Shown: positions 537 through 12,294, counted from the first letter of the stretch. The stretch: 13,181 nucleotides of DNA from a bacterium (GCA_024278215.1 JAJRTR010000020.1:1-13181), one strand, 5' to 3'. The notes: a model not told the origin generated them from the sequence alone. Made by a program: numbers and translations.

Positions 537-935
537 ATGAAAAAGATCAGCATAACCGCGTTTTGTTGCTGCAATGCACTTTATACAGGTCTGAAAAAGG
601 AAGACCTCGAACGTGCGTATGCGGAAGGCGTCAACATTATCGAGACTCCGTGTTCGGGCAAAGTTGACGCGATTTACATGATGAAGGCATTCGAAAAGGA
701 TGCAGATTGTGTTGTGGTGCTGGCTTGCGACCCACGCCAGTGCGTTACCGCCACAGGCAGCAAACGCGCCGCGAAAAGAGTGGACTATACGAAGAAACTT
801 CTCGATGAGGCCGGCTACGAGCCTGAAAGGTTGTTTTACCTGACGGCGAAGCGCCCCGCGCTGAAGGTTCTGGACGGCATTTTTGATTTTGTGCGAGATG
901 AATACAAAAGGCTCGGCCTTAAATCGGTTAAATGA
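537..935 (+). CDS. mvhD: MvhD-type hydrogenase/heterodisulfide reductase iron-sulfur electron-transfer subunit
   Basis: This 132-residue protein matches the MvhD (delta subunit) family, small [2Fe-2S] proteins that pass electrons between a donor enzyme and HdrA. Visible landmarks are the N-terminal cysteine run FCCCN (Cys10-12), TPCSGKVDAIYMMKAFEKDAD (Cys39, split here as the family's CSG-x-VD and KAFE-x-xAD motifs) and LACDPRQC (Cys64, Cys69). The C-terminal half follows the family pattern (KRAAKRV, then EPERL). The start has GCAGGG about 9 bases upstream. It is followed after 70 bases by metV, and hdrABC-mvhD-metVF is a known acetogen arrangement (Moorella thermoacetica), so its partner is probably MetVF plus an HdrABC encoded elsewhere. 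Oddly, the usual CCNWC-like N-terminal motif is replaced by CCCNA, so cluster ligation may differ. Confidence 0.8.
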   Translation: MKKISITAFCCCNALYTGLKKEDLERAYAEGVNIIETPCSGKVDAIYMMKAFEKDADCVVVLACDPRQCVTATGSKRAAKRVDYTKKLLDEAGYEPERLFYLTAKRPALKVLDGIFDFVRDEYKRLGLKSVK

Positions 936-1005: not shown

Positions 1006-1677
1006 ATGATAGTCGGTGAAAGAAAACCTTATGAAGAAATAAAATCCATGCTCGAGGGCAGCCGCAAGATACTGCTTGCCGGCTGCGGCACATGTGTGAA
1101 AGTGTGCTTCACGGGTGGCGACAAGGAAGTGGCCCTGCTGGCGTCGCAACTGCGGCTTTCGGCGAAGAAGGATAAAAGAAATATTCATATCATGGAGATG
1201 ACGGTCGAGCGCCAGTGCGAGAACGAGTTTATCGAGGAGATCGCCCCGTATGTCGACGCCTATGATGTGATAATGTCCATGGCCTGCGGCGCGGGTGTGC
1301 AGATGCTCGCGCAACGGTTCCCGGAGAAGATTGTTCTCCCGGCTGTGAACACAACATTCCTTGGGCTGCTGGAGAAGACCGGTTTTTTTGTCGAGAACTG
1401 CCAGGGCTGCGGCAACTGCGTGCTTGGCGATTACGGCGGGGTCTGCCCTGTCACCCGGTGCGCCAAGAGTATTTTTAACGGCCCGTGCGGTGGTTCTCAG
1501 AACGGCATGTGCGAGGTCGACCCGCAGACACCCTGTGCGTGGGAACTGATCATCAGTCGTCTCAGGGCGCTTGGGCAGCTCGAACGTCTCAGCAAGACGA
1601 CGCCCCCCAAAGACTGGTCGTCCGCTCGCGACGGCGGTCAGCGGAAACTCACTCGGGAGGAACAAATCCTGTCATGA
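1006..1677 (+). CDS. metV: MetV: methylenetetrahydrofolate reductase zinc/iron-sulfur partner subunit
   Basis: This 223-residue protein fits the MTHFR_C-terminal/MetV family, the partner that gives acetogen-type MetF its electron input. It has 13 cysteines. An N-terminal group follows KILLAGCGTCVKVC (Cys27, 30, 34) at the end of a beta strand, with Cys71 and Cys94 further on. A C-terminal cluster region begins NCQGCGNC (Cys132, 135, 138) and continues through Cys147, 152, 161, 169 and 177, with FNGPCGG typical of the family. The start is well placed behind GGAGGT (about 995-1000). Its stop overlaps the metF start (ATGA at 1674-1677), so the two are probably translationally coupled and form a complex. 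Expected role: accept electrons from an Hdr/MvhD or similar module and pass them to the MetF flavin. I am confident of the family; the physiological donor is inferred. Confidence 0.85.
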   Translation: MIVGERKPYEEIKSMLEGSRKILLAGCGTCVKVCFTGGDKEVALLASQLRLSAKKDKRNIHIMEMTVERQCENEFIEEIAPYVDAYDVIMSMACGAGVQMLAQRFPEKIVLPAVNTTFLGLLEKTGFFVENCQGCGNCVLGDYGGVCPVTRCAKSIFNGPCGGSQNGMCEVDPQTPCAWELIISRLRALGQLERLSKTTPPKDWSSARDGGQRKLTREEQILS

Positions 1678-2600
1678 ATACACAGAGCAATCTTGAAAGA
1701 GTACTCGAATCCGGCGCGTTCGCCGTTACCTCCGAATGCGGTCCCCCGAGAAGCGCCGCGGGCGATGTCATCCTGCGTAAGGGACTCATGCTGAAACACT
1801 GCACCGACGCTGTCAATGTTACCGACAACCAGACAGCAATCGTGCGCATGAGCAGCCTCGCGTCGTGTGTACTGCTGAAGTCGATAGGTATCGACCCTGT
1901 ACTTCAGATGGTGTGCCGCGACCGCAACCGCATCGCGCTCCAGAGCGACATACTTGGCGCGGCGGCTCTGGGCATCGACAACCTGCTTTGTCTAAGCGGC
2001 GATCACCAGTCGTTCGGCAACCAGCCGGGCGCGAAAAATGTCTATGACATCGACTCGATGCAACTGCTGGCCTGTGCGCGCGATATGTGTGAAAACGGTC
2101 GCTTCATTAGCGATCTCGGCGAATACGAGATGGATACTCCGCCTTCGATGTTCATAGGCGCAGCTGCGAATCCGTTCGCCGATCCGTCCGACTATCGTGT
2201 TCTGCGGCTCGCCAAGAAAGTGAACAGCGGCGCGCGTTTTATCCAGACGCAGTGCATTTTCAACCTGAAGAAATTCGGGCGATGGATGAAGGATGTACGC
2301 GCGATGGGGCTTCACGAGCAGGTGTATATCCTCGGCGGTGTCACGCCGCTCAAGTCTGCCGGTATGGCGAGATATATGCGCGATAAGGTTGCTGGGATGG
2401 ACGTACCGGACAGTGTCATCAGGCGGATGGAAGGACTAAAAGGCGAGGCGGCTCGCGAGATGGGCATAAAAATATGCGTCGAGACTATAAAGAAACTTAA
2501 GAAGATGGAAGGCGTGTCGGGTGTCCATATCATGGCGATTGAATGGGAAGACGCAGTGCCGCAGATTGTCGAAATGGCCGAGCTTCTGCCCAGGCCGTAA
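1674..2600 (+). CDS. metF: Methylenetetrahydrofolate reductase, MetF
   Basis: This 308-residue flavoprotein belongs to the MTHFR family and should reduce 5,10-methylene-THF to 5-methyl-THF, the last step of the methyl branch before transfer to the corrinoid protein. The barrel start carries the family E-x-GPP pattern as TSECGPPRS, with Glu21 in the position of the catalytic glutamate. Typical later blocks are NVTDNQTAIVRMS, the strand/helix around QMVCRDRNRIALQSD, LGIDNLLCLSGDH, the GGVTPLKSAG loop and the C-terminal GVSGVHIMAIEWE. The frame is open upstream to 1485, but the ATG at 1674 is right: it overlaps the metV stop and has GGGAGGAAC about 8 bases before it. It probably depends on MetV rather than directly on NAD(P)H. 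A terminator-like hairpin follows at 2628. Confidence 0.88.
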   Translation: MNTQSNLERVLESGAFAVTSECGPPRSAAGDVILRKGLMLKHCTDAVNVTDNQTAIVRMSSLASCVLLKSIGIDPVLQMVCRDRNRIALQSDILGAAALGIDNLLCLSGDHQSFGNQPGAKNVYDIDSMQLLACARDMCENGRFISDLGEYEMDTPPSMFIGAAANPFADPSDYRVLRLAKKVNSGARFIQTQCIFNLKKFGRWMKDVRAMGLHEQVYILGGVTPLKSAGMARYMRDKVAGMDVPDSVIRRMEGLKGEAAREMGIKICVETIKKLKKMEGVSGVHIMAIEWEDAVPQIVEMAELLPRP

Positions 2601-2791: not shown

Positions 2792-4207
2792 ATGCCGAAA
2801 AAGTATCACATAAACACCGAACACATACCGCCGCGTTTTACGCCCGTCGGCAAGTTCGGGATCGTTGATTTCAACGAAGACTGCGCCGGCGCGTGCCACC
2901 ACTGCGTAAAGAAAGAGTGCATCTACGAAATATATAAGAAGGAAGGCATCTTCACGCGCGAGATGGAAGGGCCGGTTCATTACCTTTACAGTTGCATGAA
3001 CTGCCTGCGCTGTGTGCAGAACTGCACACGGGCGGCGATCACGCGTGTAGTGAATCCGGAGTTCCGGTGGCTCGGCGACGATTACTGGAAACCGGATATT
3101 ATCCTTACACTCTGGTACCAGTCGGAAACGGGAAAGATACCCGTGTCCGGTGCCGGTTACCGGGGCAAGTTCTCGGGTCCGGGCTTCGACTCGATGTGGA
3201 CCGACATGTCCGAGATCGTGCGCCCGACACGCGACGGGATTCACGGTCGCGAGTATATCAGTACTTCGGTGGATGTGGGCCGCAAGGTGCCGATTCTCGC
3301 GTTCGACGACAAGCGCCGCACGGCTGTCGATATTCCGCCGCTTATGGAACTGCCCGTGCCGTTCGTGCTGAGCAAGCCGCCGTTCGGCGATTATTCGCCG
3401 AAGATGTACGAAGCTTTCGCGCGTGCCGCCGCAGTGTTGGAAACGCAATTCGTGCTGGATGCGGCCGACATTACAAAGAACCTTGCGAAATATAAAAAAC
3501 ACATCGCGCCGCTGGTCAGGGGCGCTGAGATCAGCAAATACAAAAAACTGATCAGGTCCGCCGCTTTCGTTGAACTTATATATGACGGAAAGATGGCGGC
3601 GAACATCAAAGCCATAAAAAAGATCAATACTAATGCAGTTGTCAGTGTAAAGATTCCGCTGGATGTAAACTCGCACAGGACGGCGGAAAAGCTGACGGAC
3701 GCGGGTGTCGAAGTGATTCATTTCACAGCCGACATGCACGGAAACATCGGCAAGGGTGAGCATCCTGAGTTTATCAAGGACAACTTCCGCCGCATTCACA
3801 CACACCTTGTCGACAGAGGTATCCGCGATTGTGTGACACTGATCGCCGAGGGCGGCATAGCGCTGCCCGAGCACATGGCGAAGATGATTATATGCGGTGC
3901 GGATGTTGTCGCGCTCGGTATTCCGTTTCTGGTCGCTATCGAGTGCCGCATGTGTATGAACTGTACGAGGGGACGCGCATGTCCGGTGGATATCAGCGGT
4001 GTGCCGCCCGAATCGGGATCGAAGCGAATCCTCAATCTTGCGGCCGCATGGCGCAACCAGCTTCTCGAGGTGCTCGGCGCGATGGGTATACGTGAAGTGC
4101 GCCGCTTGCGTGGCGAGTTCGGAAGAGCGATGTTCTATGAAGACCTCGAGCGCGACACTTTCCGTAAGATTTTCAGCAAAGATAAGAAAGAGAAGGCGAA
4201 GCTATGA
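2792..4207 (+). CDS. Ferredoxin-domain protein with degenerate glutamate-synthase-like flavin barrel
   Basis: This 471-residue protein is a paralogue of the next gene. An N-terminal ferredoxin-like region carries two cysteine groups (Cys31, 35, 38, 43 and Cys68, 71, 74, 78), enough for two 4Fe-4S clusters. From about residue 130 it follows the glutamate synthase FMN barrel: VVSVKIPLD near 283, TLIAEGGIALPE near 349, GADVVALG near 369, then CRMCMNCTRGRAC (Cys385, 388, 391, 397) and a C-terminal LAAAWRNQLLEVLGAMGIREVRRLRG block. It lacks the catalytic QGAKPG-x-GG segment and the SP-x-PFH/YSIED stretch of its neighbour, and DGSYGGTGA is replaced by ADMHGNIGKG. It may therefore be an electron-transfer or structural subunit rather than a synthase, which is inference. 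Its stop overlaps the next start (ATGA at 4204-4207), pointing to a complex with that protein. The strong Shine-Dalgarno at 2782-2789 supports the start. Confidence 0.75.
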   Translation: MPKKYHINTEHIPPRFTPVGKFGIVDFNEDCAGACHHCVKKECIYEIYKKEGIFTREMEGPVHYLYSCMNCLRCVQNCTRAAITRVVNPEFRWLGDDYWKPDIILTLWYQSETGKIPVSGAGYRGKFSGPGFDSMWTDMSEIVRPTRDGIHGREYISTSVDVGRKVPILAFDDKRRTAVDIPPLMELPVPFVLSKPPFGDYSPKMYEAFARAAAVLETQFVLDAADITKNLAKYKKHIAPLVRGAEISKYKKLIRSAAFVELIYDGKMAANIKAIKKINTNAVVSVKIPLDVNSHRTAEKLTDAGVEVIHFTADMHGNIGKGEHPEFIKDNFRRIHTHLVDRGIRDCVTLIAEGGIALPEHMAKMIICGADVVALGIPFLVAIECRMCMNCTRGRACPVDISGVPPESGSKRILNLAAAWRNQLLEVLGAMGIREVRRLRGEFGRAMFYEDLERDTFRKIFSKDKKEKAKL

Positions 4208-5748
4208 GCATAGCCGTGAAAAAAAAGAAAAAATCGAAAACTGCACCTGCACCGAAGCAGGCTGCACAGGAGATCACACGTGAACCACAACATACGCCCA
4301 GCCGTTTCCGGCACGCCATCGGCAAGTACCGCGTGCTGCGAAGCGATGCATGTATCGGTTGCGGCAAGTGCGCCGAGTTGTGCCCGCACGGTGTGCATGT
4401 GAAATATGAGGGCGCACAGAAAACTTCGCGACCGAAAGACTACCTCTGCCGCGGTTTTCACTGCAAGCAGAACTGCGATTACTACTGCATCGACAAGTGT
4501 CCCGTCGGCGCGCTCACGCTCCGTATCAATCCGGTGGTGGAAACAATCGGCGATCCGCGCTGGACGCCTGAAATGATCCTAAGTACCTGGGATATGGCCG
4601 AACACGGTCGGGTGACGAACGACACATTGAACGGCGAACTCGGCGACACGGACGGCGGTTTCGACAAGCTGCGCCTGAACTTTCCGAAGAAACCGAAAAA
4701 GAAACTGAAACCGAAAGATATAGATACATCAATTGTATTGAACAGGCGCGGCGAGGGCGGCACGCAGATAAAGATCGACGTGCCATGGTACGGCGGCGGC
4801 ATGTCATACGGTTCCGTCAGCCCGGCGACTATGGTCGGTAAAGCACATGCCGCTCAGATATGGAACACTTTCAGTTGCACGGGCGAGGGCGGCTTTCCTC
4901 CGCATCTCGACCCCTACGACTACAACATGATCACGCAGGTCGCCACCGGTCTGTTCGGTGTGAGGGAAGAAACGATACAGCGAGTGCGTATCGTCGAATT
5001 CAGATACGCGCAGGGCGCGAAACCCGGCCTCGGCGGCCACCTGCTGGGCGATAAAAACACACCTGCCGTCGCCAAAATGCGCGAGGCGGTCGCAGGCATG
5101 TCCCTGTTCTCGCCGTTCCCGTTCCACAGCGTATATTCAATCGAAGACCACAAGAAACACGTCGACTGGATTCTGGCTATGAACCCCGCGGCGCTGGTGT
5201 CGGCCAAGGTGTCGACGCCTACCGATGTGGACATGGTCGCTGTAGGCAGCTACTACGCCGGAGCGCATATAGTACACATCGACGGCAGCTACGGCGGCAC
5301 AGGCGCGGCGCCCGACATCGCGAAAAAGAACATCGCCATGCCTATCGAATACGCTATCCCGAAAGTCCACGAGTTCCTGACCAATGAAGGCATCCGCGAC
5401 AAGATCACTCTCATCGCCAGCGGTGGCATCAGGAACGCTTATGATATCGTCAAAGCGATTTGCCTCGGCGCGGACGGTGTCGTGGTCGGCACAGGCGAAC
5501 TCGTCGCTCTCGAATGTATACGCTGCGGTAATTGCGAAAGCGGGCGCGGCTGCGCGCGCGGCATCGCCTCGACCGACCCGGAACTCAGCAACATGTACGA
5601 CGAGAACTGGAGCACGCGCCGCATCTCCAATCTATACAACGGCTGGCGCGAGCAGATAATCGAAATAATGATCAGGTATGGAGTGAAGACGATTCCTGAA
5701 ATGCGCGGACGCTACGACCTGCTCAGGCACGTCGACTACTCGGATTGA
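4204..5748 (+). CDS. gltB2: Glutamate synthase FMN/synthase-domain subunit with N-terminal ferredoxin domain
   Basis: This 514-residue protein corresponds to the central synthase domain of glutamate synthase, made as a separate subunit as in archaeal-type enzymes. After a Lys-rich N-terminus comes a ferredoxin domain (Cys50, 53, 56, 60, then Cys82, 87, 91, 95, 99 with CIDKCPVGA). The FMN barrel runs from about residue 175 to 460. Its signature motifs are present: WYGGGMSYGSVSP near 195, TGEGG near 226, QGAKPGLGGHLLG at 270-282, FSPFPFHSVYSIED near 302, VSAKVSTP near 332, DGSYGGTGAAPD at 360-371 and ASGGIRNAYD near 405. A cluster motif CIRCGNC-x5-C follows (Cys438, 441, 444, 450). It should convert 2-oxoglutarate and ammonia, delivered from glutamine, into glutamate in the cytoplasm, probably with electrons from ferredoxin because no GltD-like gene is seen. 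It overlaps the upstream gene by 4 bases and precedes the amidotransferase gene by 16 bases. Confidence 0.85.
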   Translation: MSIAVKKKKKSKTAPAPKQAAQEITREPQHTPSRFRHAIGKYRVLRSDACIGCGKCAELCPHGVHVKYEGAQKTSRPKDYLCRGFHCKQNCDYYCIDKCPVGALTLRINPVVETIGDPRWTPEMILSTWDMAEHGRVTNDTLNGELGDTDGGFDKLRLNFPKKPKKKLKPKDIDTSIVLNRRGEGGTQIKIDVPWYGGGMSYGSVSPATMVGKAHAAQIWNTFSCTGEGGFPPHLDPYDYNMITQVATGLFGVREETIQRVRIVEFRYAQGAKPGLGGHLLGDKNTPAVAKMREAVAGMSLFSPFPFHSVYSIEDHKKHVDWILAMNPAALVSAKVSTPTDVDMVAVGSYYAGAHIVHIDGSYGGTGAAPDIAKKNIAMPIEYAIPKVHEFLTNEGIRDKITLIASGGIRNAYDIVKAICLGADGVVVGTGELVALECIRCGNCESGRGCARGIASTDPELSNMYDENWSTRRISNLYNGWREQIIEIMIRYGVKTIPEMRGRYDLLRHVDYSD

Positions 5749-5764: not shown

Positions 5765-8410
5765 TTGGAAAAAGATATACTCGATATCACAAGGCGCATC
5801 ATCGATTCGCGCGCCGCTATGCATAAAGGGCTCCCGCCGCTTGACCCCAAAAAGAAGGAAGAAGAAGGCGGCTGCGGCGTCACCGGTTTCTGCTGCACGC
5901 TTCCTGTCGCGGGCCGGCATATCTTCGAGCCGTCCGTGCAGATGCACAATCGCGGCAACGGCAAGGGCGGCGGCATCGCGGCCGTAGGCTTCGATCCCGA
6001 CCAGCTCGGCATCTCCCGCGACGTGCTCGAAAACCACTACTGCTTCCAGGTGGCTGTCCTCGATCCCAAATGTATAAAGAACCTCGAAAAGAAACACATC
6101 TTCAGGAACTTCGACGTCGACACGTACGGCAAGCTCGATACTGTGAAAAACTGGCGCGACCTCGAGAGTCTCGAAGTGAAACCGCCGGACATTTACCGCT
6201 ATTTCGTCCGCGTTAAGGATGCTGTTCTCGATAAATGGATAAAGAAGAACAGACTCGAAAAGATGCCGCGCGGCGAGGCGGAGGACGAATTCATACACCA
6301 GGCCGCAGGCGCGATAAATAACGAATACTATGCTTCACTCGGCGAACAACAGGCGTTCGTTATCTCGAAGGGCCGCAACATGCAGGTTCTCAAGATTGTC
6401 GGATACGCCGAGGATGTTGTGCGCTACTACAAGATGGACGATTTCAGGGCGCACGTGTGGATCGCCCACCAGCGCTACCCCACAAAGGGGCGTGTGTGGC
6501 ACCCCGGCGGCGCGCACCCGTTCGCCGGACTCGACGACGCCCTCGTCCACAACGGCGACTTCGCAAACTACTATTCTGTCGCCGAATACCTGCGGCAGCA
6601 CGGCTATGTGCCCATGTTTCTGACAGACACGGAAGTCGCCATCCTTGTTTTCGACCTCCTCAGCCGCATCCATCACTACCCGCTCGAGTACATCATCGAG
6701 GCCCTCGCGCCGACGACCGAGATGGACTTCGACCTGCTCCCGCTCCGACGCCAGAAACTCTACAGGCAGATACAGGTGGCGCATATACACGGTTCACCCG
6801 ATGGCCCGTGGTTCTTCATCATCGCGCGCAACTGTTTTTACGAAAAGAAGTTTCAATTGCTCGGCATCACCGACACGGCTATGTTGCGCCCACAGGTTTT
6901 CGCCGTCCAGAACGGCGAGATACAGACCGGGCTCGTGTGCTCCGAAAAACAGGCTATCGACGCCACGCTCCTCAGCCTCGCCAAAGAGGATAAACGCTTC
7001 TGTCCCATCGCCGACAAGTACTGGAACGCGCGCGGCGGCAGCCACAGGAACGGCGGGACGTACATTTTCACTATCGAGGACGACGCCTCGTCACCTACAG
7101 GCAAAAAGATGGTCTGCGCAGACAAATTCGGCCGACCCGTCGAGACGCCGCCCGAACAGTCCCTGTGCGATATTACAGCCGAAATCGGCGCTGCAACTAA
7201 AAACGATATCGCGAAAAAAGTTATTGAAAAGCATCTCAAAGCGGGCACCGCTAAAAAACTTGCCGTTGCCGCCGTCAAGAAAATGAAAGGCTGGGATTAC
7301 GGCGCTCTGCGCAGGTTCTGCAATGCCGTATCCGAACTGGCGCAGCAAAAAGACGCCTTCATGCACCCCGCGATCGAAACGCTCACGCACCTTGTTGATA
7401 TGCGATACCACACAGGCGCGAAAAAACGGGCGTCCGTGCTTCAGATACTCCACATCGCACTCCACGAGATATTCCTTTCCGCGCCTGAAATACAATCGAA
7501 AAAAACCGGCGCGTATAAACTCATCGGCTGGAAAAACCGCGACAGACTCCGCGCGCCCCGCAAAAGCGAAACGACCCTGATTATAAACGCGAAAGGGTTC
7601 CAGCCCGAACTCAACGACCGCGACTCGAAGCTCATTGTCGACGGTTTCAAACTGGGCTGGAAAAACTTCATCACATTCGGACTCGTCGGGCAGCGCTTCC
7701 ACGGTGTCGGACTCGGACCCGAAACGGACGGTGTGCGCATCGATATATACGACAGCTCGGGCGACTATCTCGCGTCGGGCATAGACGGCCTGCATATCTA
7801 CGTGCACGGCAACGGTCAGGACCAGATCGGCCAGATTACTAAACGCGGCAAACTCGTCGTTTACGGCGATGTGGGCCAGACATTCATGTACGGCGCGAAA
7901 GGCGGCGAGGCATATATCCTCGGCCATGCCGCGGGCCGTCCGCTCATCAACGGCGTCGGCAAGCCCCGCGTCATAATCAACGGCACCTGTCTCGATTACC
8001 TTGCCGAATCGTTCATGGCAGGCGATCCGCTCGACGGCGGCGGCTTCGTCGTCATAAACGGTCTCGAATGCGACGACTACGGAAACTTCGCGCTGAGGCC
8101 GCGCCCCTATCCAGGCAGCAATCTCTTCTCGATGGCGTCAGGCGGCGCTATCTACCTGCTCGATCCCTACCGGAAAACTGTCGAGGAACAACTCAACGGT
8201 GGACAGTTCATGCCCATGACCGATGCCGACTGGCAACTCATCAAACCTTATCTCGAAGAAAACGAACGGCTTTTCGGTATTAAGATTGACGACCTTCTCA
8301 CCGTCGACGGCAAAAAGATGAAGCCGACGGACGCATACATAAAAGTAGGCGCGGTCAAGCTCGGCGTGCTATCGGGAACAGCCGACGACGACGTCAACCT
8401 CGGCTCGTAA
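5765..8410 (+). CDS. Fused glutamine amidotransferase (class II) and GXGXG-domain subunit of glutamate synthase
   Basis: This 881-residue protein joins two parts of glutamate synthase that normally flank the FMN domain. The N-terminal class II amidotransferase begins at GGCGVTGF, with Cys37 as the likely nucleophile after removal of a 36-residue propeptide. Further landmarks are MHNRGNGKGGGIAA near 60, the AHQRYPTKGRVWHPGGAHPF block at about 235-254 and VHNGDFANY near 261. A linker spans about 480-600. The C-terminal GXGXG right-handed beta-helix covers about 605-870, with KLIVDGFKLGWKN, the HGNGQDQIGQ turn, KLVVYGDVGQTFMYGAKGG and ILGHAAGRPLINGVG. It should hydrolyse glutamine and channel ammonia to the gltB2 product. 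The start is a TTG at 5765, 7 bases after GGAGGG; there is no in-frame ATG before the catalytic Cys. The ordinary FMN domain between the two halves is absent and supplied in trans by the preceding gene. Confidence 0.82.
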   Translation: MEKDILDITRRIIDSRAAMHKGLPPLDPKKKEEEGGCGVTGFCCTLPVAGRHIFEPSVQMHNRGNGKGGGIAAVGFDPDQLGISRDVLENHYCFQVAVLDPKCIKNLEKKHIFRNFDVDTYGKLDTVKNWRDLESLEVKPPDIYRYFVRVKDAVLDKWIKKNRLEKMPRGEAEDEFIHQAAGAINNEYYASLGEQQAFVISKGRNMQVLKIVGYAEDVVRYYKMDDFRAHVWIAHQRYPTKGRVWHPGGAHPFAGLDDALVHNGDFANYYSVAEYLRQHGYVPMFLTDTEVAILVFDLLSRIHHYPLEYIIEALAPTTEMDFDLLPLRRQKLYRQIQVAHIHGSPDGPWFFIIARNCFYEKKFQLLGITDTAMLRPQVFAVQNGEIQTGLVCSEKQAIDATLLSLAKEDKRFCPIADKYWNARGGSHRNGGTYIFTIEDDASSPTGKKMVCADKFGRPVETPPEQSLCDITAEIGAATKNDIAKKVIEKHLKAGTAKKLAVAAVKKMKGWDYGALRRFCNAVSELAQQKDAFMHPAIETLTHLVDMRYHTGAKKRASVLQILHIALHEIFLSAPEIQSKKTGAYKLIGWKNRDRLRAPRKSETTLIINAKGFQPELNDRDSKLIVDGFKLGWKNFITFGLVGQRFHGVGLGPETDGVRIDIYDSSGDYLASGIDGLHIYVHGNGQDQIGQITKRGKLVVYGDVGQTFMYGAKGGEAYILGHAAGRPLINGVGKPRVIINGTCLDYLAESFMAGDPLDGGGFVVINGLECDDYGNFALRPRPYPGSNLFSMASGGAIYLLDPYRKTVEEQLNGGQFMPMTDADWQLIKPYLEENERLFGIKIDDLLTVDGKKMKPTDAYIKVGAVKLGVLSGTADDDVNLGS

Positions 8411-8499: not shown

Positions 8500-9867
8500 T
8501 TATCCTGGCCTGTCTCCGAATGTCAGTACATCCATCGGGCATAATGCTATACATTCGCCACATGCTATGCAGGGTGTGTTTTTCACTGAAAATGATTCCT
8601 GCCGCAGGGCGAAACCTTTGATGTCGATTCCCATTTCGCAGTACCTGTTGCACTGTCCGCAGTCTATACAACGGTCATTGGAGGAGATTTTATATTTTGA
8701 CAACACAGCGCCCAGAAGATTCATATAGGCGGCGAGTGGACAAAGGTATCTGCACCAGATTCGAGCGCCGAAGAACGGGTACATTCCGACTCCGATAATG
8801 CCCGAAAATATCAGGTAGACTATGATATTGTACCAGTACTGTACGCTGTTCACTGCCGGGGCGCTCACGGCAGTATTCTTCAGCACAATCATACCTGTCA
8901 TCAGAACTGAAGCCGTAAGAACGACATATATTATCCGCTCTCTCCTGCGGCTGATATAGCCCTTTGGAGCCAGCCGTCTGAACGGTTCGCCGAATGTTTC
9001 CGCGAGTGCGCCGCACCCGCATATCCATGAGCAGCATCTCTTGCCGTGGAAGTAGACAAAAACCGGCATGGCGATAAACGCAAGGAACACAGTGAAAAAC
9101 GTATAAAAAACAAGTTCAGGATTCGAGTTGCCCATCACAAAAAAACTGTTTGCCCACGATGCGGGTGCGAGTGTGAGCGGCCACACTGTAATCAGAGTTG
9201 CAGCTTTCGCACCGAGATATTTCACCGGCATCAGGGTCAGGCCGAAAAGGAAAACTGTCTGAAAAAATATACATGAAATGGTTTTCCATCTTATATAATC
9301 ATGAAGCCTGTAATGCCGCTTCCGCTTTCCGTTCAATATCCATAATCCGAATCCGCCGACAAGAAGTGTGTATAGCACACCATACCACTTTGCAGCCAGA
9401 AAACTCAGCACAGGATTTGATATTTCCGCCGCACTTTTCAGTCCATAATGCCCAAGCAGCGCTTTCATTCCGAATGACTTGAAAAGATACATGCTGATAA
9501 TGAAAGCAATAAAGATTGCAAAAAAGATATAGCGCCGGGAATTCCAGGTATCAGCAATTTTGACACCGACTTTGCCGAGAAAATCATAAGGGGCTCTCGA
9601 TCCGGCGTTTATTATTGTCCTGTCGTTAGGAATTTCTCTGAGCCCGTCCGGTGTCTTAAGAGTAACAGAATTTTCATTGATACTTGTGACGGTCGTATCG
9701 TAAAGGATAACGATTTCACCGCGAACCTGTTTTGATTTTAATATTGAAATATTTCGCGTGCGCGGCCTGCTGAGTTCCGGGCCTCTGACCGCCATAGTAA
9801 CCCTGTTGTTTTCACTAAGAGCAATGACGGACTCGGCGGCCTGGTCGCCCGCGCCCACCACCAGCAC
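8500..9867 (-). CDS. C-terminal part of a frameshifted flavoprotein / NapH-like membrane / ferredoxin fusion
   Basis: This 455-codon frame opens at the second Rossmann motif (VVGAGDQAAE, residues 3-12) of a pyridine-nucleotide-disulfide-type oxidoreductase. The flavoprotein ends near RTIINAGSRAPYDFLGKVG (about 83-101). About seven hydrophobic segments follow, at roughly 112-130, 162-178, 197-213, 222-237, 252-272, 312-329 and 348-366. Between and after them are NapH/NosR-style cysteine groups, Cys278, 279, 283, 285 and CRYLCP (Cys372, 376). The C-terminus is a two-cluster ferredoxin: CIDCGQCNRYC (400-410) and CIACGECIALC (433-443). The protein would sit in the inner membrane and move electrons between a soluble flavin site and Fe-S centres or the quinone pool; partners are unknown. 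Its true N-terminus is the frame at 10540-9914, out of register by one base near 9930. The ATG at 9867 is internal to the domain and is probably not the native start. Confidence 0.72.
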   Translation of the reverse strand: MLVVGAGDQAAESVIALSENNRVTMAVRGPELSRPRTRNISILKSKQVRGEIVILYDTTVTSINENSVTLKTPDGLREIPNDRTIINAGSRAPYDFLGKVGVKIADTWNSRRYIFFAIFIAFIISMYLFKSFGMKALLGHYGLKSAAEISNPVLSFLAAKWYGVLYTLLVGGFGLWILNGKRKRHYRLHDYIRWKTISCIFFQTVFLFGLTLMPVKYLGAKAATLITVWPLTLAPASWANSFFVMGNSNPELVFYTFFTVFLAFIAMPVFVYFHGKRCCSWICGCGALAETFGEPFRRLAPKGYISRRRERIIYVVLTASVLMTGMIVLKNTAVSAPAVNSVQYWYNIIVYLIFSGIIGVGMYPFFGARIWCRYLCPLAAYMNLLGAVLSKYKISSNDRCIDCGQCNRYCEMGIDIKGFALRQESFSVKNTPCIACGECIALCPMDVLTFGDRPG

Positions 9868-9913
9868 ATCAAAATCCCTGTATTTCGACGGATCGTAAAG
9901 TTTATATGTAACC

Positions 9914-10540
9914 TTATCGAGTTCTTCTCGTGACGCCGAGTTTGCGCGGATCGCCCTGTTTGCCGACCGCGAGTATAACCCGCATCGCCCTGAAGGTCGT
10001 GCCGCCTGTTGTCGTGATCACGAATATGCCGTCGCTGCCCTTCTTTATATCGGCAACTTTTTCTCCGGTTTTGATATTAAGTTCTGCTTCAGAAAGGTCT
10101 GTGTCCCAGCGCTCAAGAAGCTTTTCCCTTGTGCATTCCTCGAACCAGAGGTCTCCTTTCAACTGAAGGGAAAGAGGTTCGGCGAAAAGTTTTTTACCGA
10201 TGTGGAAGTTCCTGACGGTATTGGCGGTTCTTTCGCCCTCGAGGACAACGTAATTCAAGTTGCGCCCGCAGGCGGCGAACGCAGCCGATAATCCAGCGGC
10301 CCCGGCACCTACTATGGCAAGCTGATAAACATCTTCCGAAGGTGACGGCGGGACCCCTTCGGCAGCAATTCGTTCGACAAGATCGTGTGCCTGATTTATT
10401 GATATTTTAAGAAGTGGGTAACCTGTGATATCGCCGCATAGGTACATTCCCTCTACCGCTGTCTGCAAATCGTTGTCAATATCAGGAAACGTAAGTATGG
10501 ACGGGTCGGACACAGGTTTCTTTTCAAAAAACCCCCACAT
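9914..10540 (-). CDS. N-terminal part of the frameshifted flavoprotein fusion
   Basis: This 208-residue frame starts with a short tail resembling the C-terminus of a thioredoxin-reductase-like enzyme (GMYLCGDITGYPLLKISINQ, 31-50). It then begins a complete FAD-binding domain with VGAGAAGLSAAFAA (77-90), VVLEGE (98-103) and IGKKLFAEPL (114-122), followed by RVILAVGKQGDPRKLGV (187-203). This style resembles YpdA-like reductases. Translation then falls into TRRTR and stops at 9914. Reading on after skipping one base gives REELDKVTYKLYDPSKYRDF and runs straight into the 8500-9867 frame, so one frameshift splits a gene of about 680 codons. A lost CC before ACGAG would restore a GVP-x-EEL motif, usual at this site. 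The start is supported by GGGGAG upstream. It lies 107 bases after the acetolactate synthase gene and may share its transcript. It is either a recent pseudogene or a sequencing error. Confidence 0.7.
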   Translation of the reverse strand: MWGFFEKKPVSDPSILTFPDIDNDLQTAVEGMYLCGDITGYPLLKISINQAHDLVERIAAEGVPPSPSEDVYQLAIVGAGAAGLSAAFAACGRNLNYVVLEGERTANTVRNFHIGKKLFAEPLSLQLKGDLWFEECTREKLLERWDTDLSEAELNIKTGEKVADIKKGSDGIFVITTTGGTTFRAMRVILAVGKQGDPRKLGVTRRTR

Positions 10541-10647: not shown

Positions 10648-12294
10648 TTACATCGGACAAATTACCTCGCCCAGTTTTTCGTTCAACTTTATATTTTGTG
10701 AATAATCAACGTTAATAATAATTATTGTGGGAAGCTCCCTGTCATTGAAAGCAATGTCAAGCGCGTCAGGGAATTCGCTTGCCTTTTCGATACTGATGCC
10801 CCGGCAGCCGTATGCTCCGGCAAGTTTTACAAAATCCGGATTGAGAAGTTCCGTATGCGATGTTCGGCAATATCGCAGTTGCTGCTTCCAGGAAATCAGC
10901 CCGTATCCGTTATCGTTCCAGATAATCACAGTGACGGGAATCCTGTACTTTACAGCGGTAATCAGGCCCTGAACATTCATCATGAAACCGCCGTCGCCGC
11001 AGAGCGCGACAACTTTTTTGTCTGGAAAAACCTTCTGGGCGGCAATCGCGCCGGGCAGCGCGAATCCCATAGAACAAAATCCGTTTGTGATGATACATGT
11101 TCCGGGTTGATAAGTAGGGTAATGTCTGGCGACCCACATTTTATGCGCGCCGACATCGGAGATAAGTATGTCTTTATTACCCATAGCCAGCCGCAAGTCA
11201 TAAAGTATCTTCTGAGGTTTCATCGGCATTTCCGTGTCGTCTTTAAACTCAAGAAGTTCATCCGTCATTCTTTTCCTGAGGCTGTCGTAATACGGTTCCG
11301 TCTTACGATGACATTCCTCTATGTTTTCGATAATAACACGCAGGGTTTCGCCGATCTCACCGACCATATCCACATCGACAACATAATCCTCGTCGACCTC
11401 CGCCGGTTGTGTGTCTATATGAATTATCTTCTTCGGCGCTCCCTTGTTCCACCTGTCCGGGGGCCATTCCACAAGATCATATCCGATGCAGATTACAAGA
11501 TCGGACTTCTCGAAAGCCTCCATGACAAGGTCCCTGACACCAAGGCCCACGCAGTAGAGATTCCTGCTGTGCCGCGCCGAGAGCGCGCCTTTTCCCATGA
11601 ACGAGTTGGCAGCATAAATGCCTGTTTTATCAATAAATTCGGAGATCAGCCCGGATTTCCTGGCCCTGACGGCACCGTTGCCGAAGAGTATTACAGGCTG
11701 TCTGGAGTCGCGGATCAGGCTGAGTATTTTCTGCACATGATGAAGCTCAACCCCTCCATGCTGCCTGTCAATTACATAAGGTATTGGTCTGCCGTCAACG
11801 ATTTCCTTTGCAATATCTTCAGGCAGTTCAATCACAGTCGCGCCGGGTTTTTCTTTCCAGGCTACTTTAAAAGCCTTCCTTATCACTTCGGGAATGCTTG
11901 CGGGATCACGGACCGTTCCGGCCCATTTTGTTACCGGCTCGAACATCCGAATGGAATCCATGTTCTGGTGTGATTCTTTGTGAAGCCGCTTTGTCGAAGC
12001 CTGTCCGACAATCGCGACAAGCGGCGAGTAGTCAAGGGTGGCGCTCGCGACACCGGTAATAAGATTCGTCGCGCCCGGCCCGAGTGTTCCAAGGCATACT
12101 CCGGGCCTCCCGGTCACTCTCCCGTATACATCAGCCATAAAGGCGGCGGCCTGTTCGTGTCGGCATGTTATAAATTCCATGGTCGAGTCGAGCAGGGAAA
12201 TCATGATGTCAGCGTTCTCTTCTCCAGGGACTCCGAATATTGTGTCCACACCCTCTGCTTCAAGGCACCTTATGAAAAGGTCTGATGCTTTCAT
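10648..12294 (-). CDS. Thiamine-diphosphate-dependent acetolactate synthase, catabolic-like type
   Basis: This 548-residue enzyme has the full three-domain acetohydroxyacid-synthase fold. The PYR domain has FGVPGEEN (20-27) and the catalytic glutamate in CRHEQAAAFMAD (Glu47), followed by LGPGATN. The central domain spans about 185-325. The PP domain carries the ThDP/Mg motif GDGGFMMN (433-440) through WNDN (459-462). The expected reaction condenses two pyruvates to acetolactate, or pyruvate with 2-oxobutyrate. The FAD-type RFDDR motif of biosynthetic enzymes is replaced by GYDLVEWPPDRWN (271-283), as in AlsS/BudB catabolic enzymes, and no ilvN-like regulatory subunit lies next to it. Butanediol or acetoin genes are also absent, so the pathway is open; another ThDP decarboxylase role is possible. 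The start is supported by GAGGA 5 bases upstream of ATG. A promoter with a palindrome lies 37-65 bases upstream. Confidence 0.75.
   Translation of the reverse strand: MKASDLFIRCLEAEGVDTIFGVPGEENADIMISLLDSTMEFITCRHEQAAAFMADVYGRVTGRPGVCLGTLGPGATNLITGVASATLDYSPLVAIVGQASTKRLHKESHQNMDSIRMFEPVTKWAGTVRDPASIPEVIRKAFKVAWKEKPGATVIELPEDIAKEIVDGRPIPYVIDRQHGGVELHHVQKILSLIRDSRQPVILFGNGAVRARKSGLISEFIDKTGIYAANSFMGKGALSARHSRNLYCVGLGVRDLVMEAFEKSDLVICIGYDLVEWPPDRWNKGAPKKIIHIDTQPAEVDEDYVVDVDMVGEIGETLRVIIENIEECHRKTEPYYDSLRKRMTDELLEFKDDTEMPMKPQKILYDLRLAMGNKDILISDVGAHKMWVARHYPTYQPGTCIITNGFCSMGFALPGAIAAQKVFPDKKVVALCGDGGFMMNVQGLITAVKYRIPVTVIIWNDNGYGLISWKQQLRYCRTSHTELLNPDFVKLAGAYGCRGISIEKASEFPDALDIAFNDRELPTIIIINVDYSQNIKLNEKLGEVICPM

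Follow-up and report, generated by a model that had tools for sequence, protein, structure and literature searches.

A putative split glutamate synthase built around an obligate pair of dead and live barrel subunits

The 13,181-nucleotide stretch of bacterial DNA analysed here (GCA_024278215.1 JAJRTR010000020.1:1-13181, hereafter the window) carries two overlapping genes, GB2p and GB2, whose products are related to the flavin mononucleotide (FMN) barrel of glutamate synthases. We consider it about two-thirds probable that the product of their operon is a split glutamate synthase, with GB2p as a catalytically dead gate, tunnel and iron-sulphur (Fe-S) subunit and as the obligate partner of GB2. 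Judged from its genes, the putative enzyme is a real, widespread and so far uncharacterised glutamate synthase variant with an obligate pair of a dead and a live barrel. A preliminary description of the window had noted two overlapping paralogues, each with a ferredoxin domain, a barrel and a C-terminal CxxCxxC-x5-C motif, an architecture on which open reading frames (ORFs), Pfam and alignment agree. The features of the two genes are the following.

2792..4207, + strand: GB2p, catalytically dead glutamate-synthase-type barrel subunit, 471 amino acids (ORF, Pfam, alignment, model)
2882..3025, + strand: GB2p N-terminal double [4Fe-4S] motif, C31/35/38/43 and C68/71/74/78 (8 cysteines invariant in 86 homologues)
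3128..3271, + strand: GB2p near-invariant pre-barrel block, residues 113-160, TGKIPVSGAGY...FDSMWTDMSEIVRPTRDGIHGREYIST (conservation, hhalign)
3344..3937, + strand: GB2p barrel, eight modelled strands, active-site loops deleted, GG...GAD phosphate-type loop retained (model, alignment)
3944..3982, + strand: GB2p C-terminal cluster motif C385-x2-C388-x2-C391-x5-C397 (invariant in 86 homologues)
4204..4207, + strand: ATGA overlap of 4 bases between GB2p stop and GB2 start (ORFs)
4204..5748, + strand: GB2, catalytically competent-looking glutamate-synthase barrel subunit, 514 amino acids (Pfam Glu_synthase 2.3e-84)
4351..4500, + strand: GB2 N-terminal double [4Fe-4S] ferredoxin motif, C50/53/56/60 and C82/87/95/99 (invariant in 76 homologues)
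5011..5028, + strand: GB2 QGAKPG, catalytic lysine loop, QGAK at residue 270 (motif, alignment)
5110..5148, + strand: GB2 SPFPFHSVYSIED loop, residues 303-315, which reads PAPHHDIYSIED in archaeal-type GltB2 (alignment)
5287..5307, + strand: GB2 SYGGTGA loop, GGTG at residue 364 (alignment)
5515..5553, + strand: GB2 C-terminal cluster motif C438-x2-C441-x2-C444-x5-C450 (alignment)

The alignment set comprised 86 GB2p, 76 GB2 and 17 archaeal-type GltB2 proteins. The Pfam Glu_synthase profile matches GB2p with 64 bits and over its second half only (residues 250-433), and no QGAK, YSIED or GGTG motif was found in the protein. Throughout the 86 homologues a deletion of about 50 residues removes the catalytic lysine and SIED loops together with the positions that bind 2-oxoglutarate; the GB2 columns for the K of QGAK, H279, R293, H308 and S312 are deleted in essentially all of them. 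The columns of the GEGG and SYGGTGA loops can be aligned and are not kept, save one glycine of GGTG. The elements that mark a functional FMN/synthase barrel (PF01645), namely the lysine with QGAK, SIED, GGTG and the 2-oxoglutarate arginine, are thus deleted or replaced in GB2p, whereas all 12 cluster cysteines (C31/35/38/43, C68/71/74/78 and C385/388/391/397) are 100% conserved and suffice for three predicted [4Fe-4S] clusters. The earlier statement that the first copy has none of QGAKPG, SYGGTGA and YSIED and yet keeps all cysteine groups holds for the 86 homologues as well.

The most conserved part of GB2p is the block of residues 113-160 in front of the barrel, where 34 of 48 columns are at least 95% conserved as against 67 of the 423 elsewhere; over the whole protein 101 of 471 columns reach that level across phyla. 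The block is absent from GB2. Since GB2p is devoid of the catalytic columns and GB2 of the block, the two copies have degenerated in complementary ways, and the alignment points to complementary specialisation of GB2p rather than simple degeneration. The motifs are lost, as the preliminary description had it, but its term "degenerate copy" does not do justice to a protein with a near-invariant segment. That GB2p is a decaying duplicate devoid of function is extremely improbable: about 50 barrel residues and all catalytic motifs are gone, but the 101 conserved columns, the 12 invariant cysteines, the constant position next to GB2 and the fusion of both genes in two lineages (see below) speak against decay. 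An in-frame TGA in the GB2p genes of four relatives was considered as a possible selenocysteine codon and rejected, as it is an ordinary end stop past which the alignment had run.

GB2 represents the putative catalytic side. Its Pfam Glu_synthase match reaches 284 bits over residues 182-494, and glutamate synthases of known structure align with it over their FMN domain (8.6e-49). QGAK, YSIED (residue 311), GGTG and the C-terminal CxxCxxC-x5-C motif (residue 438) are all found. The catalytic columns are more than 90% conserved in the 76 homologues, with the QGAK, 2-oxoglutarate arginine, SIED and GGTG loops present, and the 12 equivalent cluster cysteines are 100% conserved.

The GB2 site is unlike that of other glutamate synthases (GOGATs) in one respect, as it reads PFPFHS where others have PAPHHD; the SPFPFHSVYSIED loop in place of the archaeal-type PAPHHDIYSIED hints at an altered active site. 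GB2 might accordingly use another 2-oxo acid, and the complex would then be a GOGAT-like amidotransferase-reductase with an unknown product. Indeed, where archaeal GltB2 has the loops PAPHHDIYSIED and VKIAAVHN, GB2 has PFPFHSVYSIED and VKVSTPTD, and two giant fusion proteins described below have PFPFHNCYSIED and VKVSPSVD. However, the equivalents of K972, R992 and E903 are kept in GB2. Moreover, the assembly of the window, which is 95% complete, holds no further Glu_synthase barrel gene, only two short weak matches, which makes this the sole locus of its kind there, though the same assembly carries one gene of the glutamate dehydrogenase family besides glutamine synthetase genes. We regard such a change of substrate as improbable.

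The association of both copies was followed in the best 80 of 558 loci, of which 79 were testable, and GB2 lies directly downstream of GB2p in all 79. In most related loci no more than about 10 bases separate the GB2p stop from the nearest start codon. Among 193 genomes of relatives, GB2p is confined to 12, which are also exactly those with a GB2 of this module type (above 680 bits; next best 245), and the 64 genomes of the phylum of relative G150 contributed three pairs, one of them in a genome already counted, and one fragment at a contig end. The pairing is obligate, each testable relative with either copy having both, as the co-occurrence check proposed in the preliminary description was meant to reveal. 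Together with the missing catalytic columns and the natural fusions, this upholds the proposal of an active/inactive pair. The loci with the pair, which belong to anaerobic bacteria and one archaeon, are distributed over Desulfobacterota, Dehalococcoidia, Omnitrophota, Latescibacterota, Planctomycetes, Hydrogenedentota, Sumerlaeota and ANME-1. In the locus of the ANME-1 archaeon (L112) the genes GB2p, GB2 and GATX, the latter encoding a glutaminase fused to a GXGXG domain, have no MvhD, MetV or MetF upstream, and this module was probably gained by horizontal transfer.

The pair is fused in two lineages, as a protein of 998 amino acids (L043) and as a frame of 1,103 amino acids (L052). In addition, two giant polypeptides of 2,902 (L125:1423-10128) and 2,846 amino acids (L126:1350-9887) combine a FAD-linked oxidase (FAD_binding_4), Fe-S domains, a GB2p-like dead barrel, a GB2-like live barrel, the glutaminase and GXGXG. 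From the dead barrel onwards this order matches that of the operon. The dead barrel of both giants is devoid of the C-terminal cysteine motif.

AlphaFold2 (AF2) models GB2p alone as a confident eight-stranded barrel with a predicted local distance difference test (pLDDT) above 90. The model has no complete FMN or substrate site and no isoalloxazine or 2-oxoglutarate loop is left, which answers the earlier question of an FMN pocket in the first barrel. Block residues 118-151 remain below a pLDDT of 50 in the isolated model, as would be expected for a segment folding against a partner. According to VIA-align, GB2p is nearest to the GltS FMN domain (Z 24, 309 residues; unrelated barrels about 21), and a Foldseek search with GB2p alone returns general FMN/IMPDH barrels. 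For a model of the pair the neighbouring GB2p and GB2 genes of L088 were used with 40 alignment rows in AF2, the intervening TAA being read as Gly as a modelling device. This model can be aligned in sequential order to the central and FMN domains of GltS (residues 447-1211; Z 32.9, 589 residues aligned, root-mean-square deviation (rmsd) 9.7 Å).

In GltS, the FMN domain and the central domain together line the ammonia tunnel; the central domain is a truncated barrel for which a 2021 review left duplication or independent origin undecided; Met479 may control electron transfer from the cluster to FMN (PMC8097209). Archaeal-type GltB2 matches the central domain in hhalign with a probability of 99.2% (6e-20), the match covering the block and the second barrel half. 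With the block alone the probability is 98.5% and with a barrel devoid of the block 97.7%, compared with at most 0.7% for controls with reversed or unrelated profiles. The block of GB2p in turn matches that of archaeal GltB2 with 96.9%. It aligns with GltS 472-515 (Azospirillum numbering), which contain Met479 and VTN508P, of which Asn508 presumably helps to form the tunnel gate. No such block was found in the GltS FMN domain, in GB2 or in the live half of the giant proteins. As it resides in each dead part and is missing from each live part, GB2p relates to GB2 as the central domain relates to the FMN domain. GB2p is thus central-domain-like, a dead barrel in front of an FMN barrel with a Met479/VTNP-type block which the FMN barrel lacks. 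Membership in the GltS central-domain family itself was not assigned, because PF04898 scores GB2p with 20.2 bits, below the cut-off of 22.8 and no better than GB2 (20.3); hhalign gave 88% for GB2p.

In a maximum-likelihood tree GB2p groups with the dead half of the giants (100%) and GB2 with their live half (97%), and both groups stand apart from archaeal GltB2, central domains and FMN domains with 99% ultrafast bootstrap (UFBoot) support. Forcing GB2 together with the FMN domains gave p 0.016 in the approximately unbiased (AU) and 0.24 in the Shimodaira-Hasegawa (SH) test, and forcing GB2p together with the central domains an AU value of 0.28; the SH test rejects neither. The tree suggests that the two dead-live pairs may have arisen independently. 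A single duplication behind both pairs is disfavoured by the 99% separation, though the AU and SH results are mixed. The homology between GltB2 and the central domain favours an origin of the latter from barrel duplication.

GB2p could also be a different active enzyme, with the block as a new catalytic or ligand site and the barrel binding another cofactor. The invariant polar block residues (W136, D138, E141, R144, R147, D148, H151, R153, E154, Y155), the retained GG...GAD phosphate-type loop and the full eight-stranded barrel of the model would agree with this. However, the block is homologous to an equally conserved segment of archaeal GltB2 and to the GltS central domain, which is itself no enzyme, neither an isoalloxazine nor a 2-oxoglutarate loop is left, and GB2p never occurs apart from GB2 in the tested loci. 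We consider a separate enzyme unlikely. Among the roles offered by the preliminary description, "electron wire, scaffold or different enzyme", a wire plus scaffold fits the 12 cysteines and the block homology best, and the last one is less favoured.

The operon order is MvhD, MetV, MetF, GB2p, GB2, GATX, as deduced from ORFs and Pfam, by which neither HdrABC genes in the window nor GltD in the operon were found. The remaining genes of the operon are:

537..935, + strand: MvhD/FlpD, methyl-viologen-reducing hydrogenase delta-type [2Fe-2S] electron-transfer subunit (Pfam FlpD 1.7e-25)
1006..1677, + strand: MetV, Fe-S partner subunit of methylene-tetrahydrofolate (THF) reductase (Pfam PF12225 1e-36)
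1674..2600, + strand: MetF, methylene-THF reductase, flavin TIM barrel (Pfam MTHFR 1.3e-38)
5765..8410, + strand: GATX, class-II glutaminase domain fused to GXGXG domain, 881 amino acids (Pfam)

GATX follows the pair in 55 of the 56 loci with enough sequence. Its GGCGV motif (residues 35-39) with the candidate nucleophile Cys37 is found in 54 of 55 homologues; the class-II glutaminase match (Pfam GATase_6, 26.1 bits) is just below the 27-bit cut-off, and the GXGXG domain is recognised at residues 643-811 (Pfam 2.8e-10). Recurring neighbours are GlnA (glutamine synthetase), AmtB (ammonium transporter), GlnK (PII) and CarA/CarB (carbamoyl-phosphate synthase), which indicate a role in nitrogen assimilation.

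Of 60 related loci whose flanks are long enough, 58 have MvhD upstream of the pair, 48 MetF and 38 MetV, and HdrABC genes are close to the pair in about 10 loci, mostly in those devoid of MetV. A divergent MetF (35-47% identity) stands beside GB2p in the MetV-less loci L049, L072, L087, L095, L102, L106, L107, L115, L118, L122 and L123, most of which, where enough sequence is available, carry HdrABC downstream of GATX. As the methylene-THF reductase complex of Moorella thermoacetica consists of MetVF, HdrABC and MvhD (PMC9012536; PMC5736913), these neighbours would also suit a pair that, with MvhD, is part of a methylene-THF reductase or electron-bifurcation complex, with glutamate synthesis secondary or absent. 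Against such a complex, MetF is missing from the upstream flank in 12 of the 60 loci (in L055 it lies downstream), of which 11 still have MvhD upstream, the exception being L112. The glutaminase cysteine of GATX and the QGAK and R992 equivalents of GB2 are kept, and the nitrogen-related neighbours argue in the same direction. We rate this alternative as improbable as well.

For a split glutamate synthase we infer the following course. GATX would release ammonia from glutamine, and GB2 would form glutamate from 2-oxoglutarate on FMN. GB2p would pack beside GB2 as the central domain does beside the FMN domain in classical GltS, its block complementing GB2 in trans by completing the gate and tunnel to the FMN, and its three [4Fe-4S] clusters would lengthen the electron path into GB2. 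Electrons would most likely enter via MvhD, because MvhD stays beside GB2p where upstream MetF is absent, and would come from MetVF by methyl-THF oxidation and/or from HdrABC. The potential of methyl-THF oxidation is too positive for the reduction of NAD(P)+ and could in principle serve to reduce iminoglutarate, which makes a route from MetVF and MvhD to a GOGAT thermodynamically thinkable. More tentatively, and with rather more doubt than hope, one may propose that a dead-live pair evolved twice from GltB2, dividing it into a gate, tunnel and Fe-S part and a catalytic part, and that GB2p/GB2 draw the electrons for glutamate via MvhD directly from methyl-THF oxidation in the Wood-Ljungdahl pathway instead of from NAD(P)H or free ferredoxin.

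Several points weigh against our interpretation. The evidence comes from sequences and models. The adjacency loci were found with patterns taken from the GB2p block itself and only the best 80 of 558 were kept. The pair model has a predicted template modelling score of 0.53 with a block pLDDT below 50, so that its interface is of low confidence and docking is not established, and the 9.7 Å rmsd to GltS means that the model does not reproduce how the barrels are oriented towards each other. Compared directly, the blocks of GB2p and of the central domain reach only 11% in hhalign, the link running via archaeal GltB2, and the residues in question differ (M479 corresponds to A121, N508 to R144). 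Finally, MetVF may be co-transcribed for other reasons.

Two further genes of the window lie on the minus strand. A thioredoxin-reductase-like/NapH-like Fe-S membrane gene (8500-10540) is split into two frames (ORFs 9914-10540 and 8500-9867); the YpdA profile spans the break and the downstream frame continues as EELDKVTYKLYDPSKYRDFDVLVVGAG. The frame break near 9930 is a single-base indel or an assembly error. Positions 10648-12294 encode an acetolactate-synthase-type thiamine pyrophosphate enzyme (NCBIfam PRK08322, 693 bits, above cut-off).

In the searchable literature, which includes few subscription papers, no description of this operon or of an inactive GOGAT barrel subunit was found. To that extent the earlier remark that such a copy has no described function holds, though the central domain of GltS provides a close precedent for its function. 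The system offers a concrete and widely conserved role for an inactive paralogue and bears on the origin of the central domain. GB2p/GB2 would be a separate instance, still recognisable, in which labour is divided in this way. MvhD/MetVF/Hdr may further represent a so far uncharacterised source of the electrons with which anaerobes assimilate ammonia.

GltB/Fd-GltS (PDB 1ea0, 1ofd, 6s6s, 7mfm) comprise the same four parts, a class-II glutaminase, a dead barrel, an FMN barrel and GXGXG, and there too the block is on the dead part and missing from the live part. In contrast, the parts are split here over three genes, and the dead barrel comes first, followed by the live barrel, the glutaminase and GXGXG, where GltB/Fd-GltS start with the glutaminase and continue with the central domain, the FMN domain and GXGXG. 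Unlike the truncated central domain, GB2p is modelled as a full eight-stranded barrel and has three Fe-S motifs; GB2 differs from GltS by two extra [4Fe-4S] motifs and by four instead of three C-terminal cysteines. The operon is devoid of the GltD of GltB systems and has MvhD/MetVF instead. As in the Moorella complex, MvhD, MetV and MetF are in one operon and HdrABC is nearby in some relatives, whereas the window itself has no Hdr genes and a complete GOGAT set is interleaved. Archaeal-type GltB2 proteins (also GlxD/MgsC-like) share the ferredoxin domain, the barrel and the C-terminal CxxCxxC motif, and hhalign (100%) finds them homologous from end to end to GB2p as well as to GB2. In them a single protein contains the block (QVTNPSIDPLRE) together with the FMN site, and the window divides these between two subunits.

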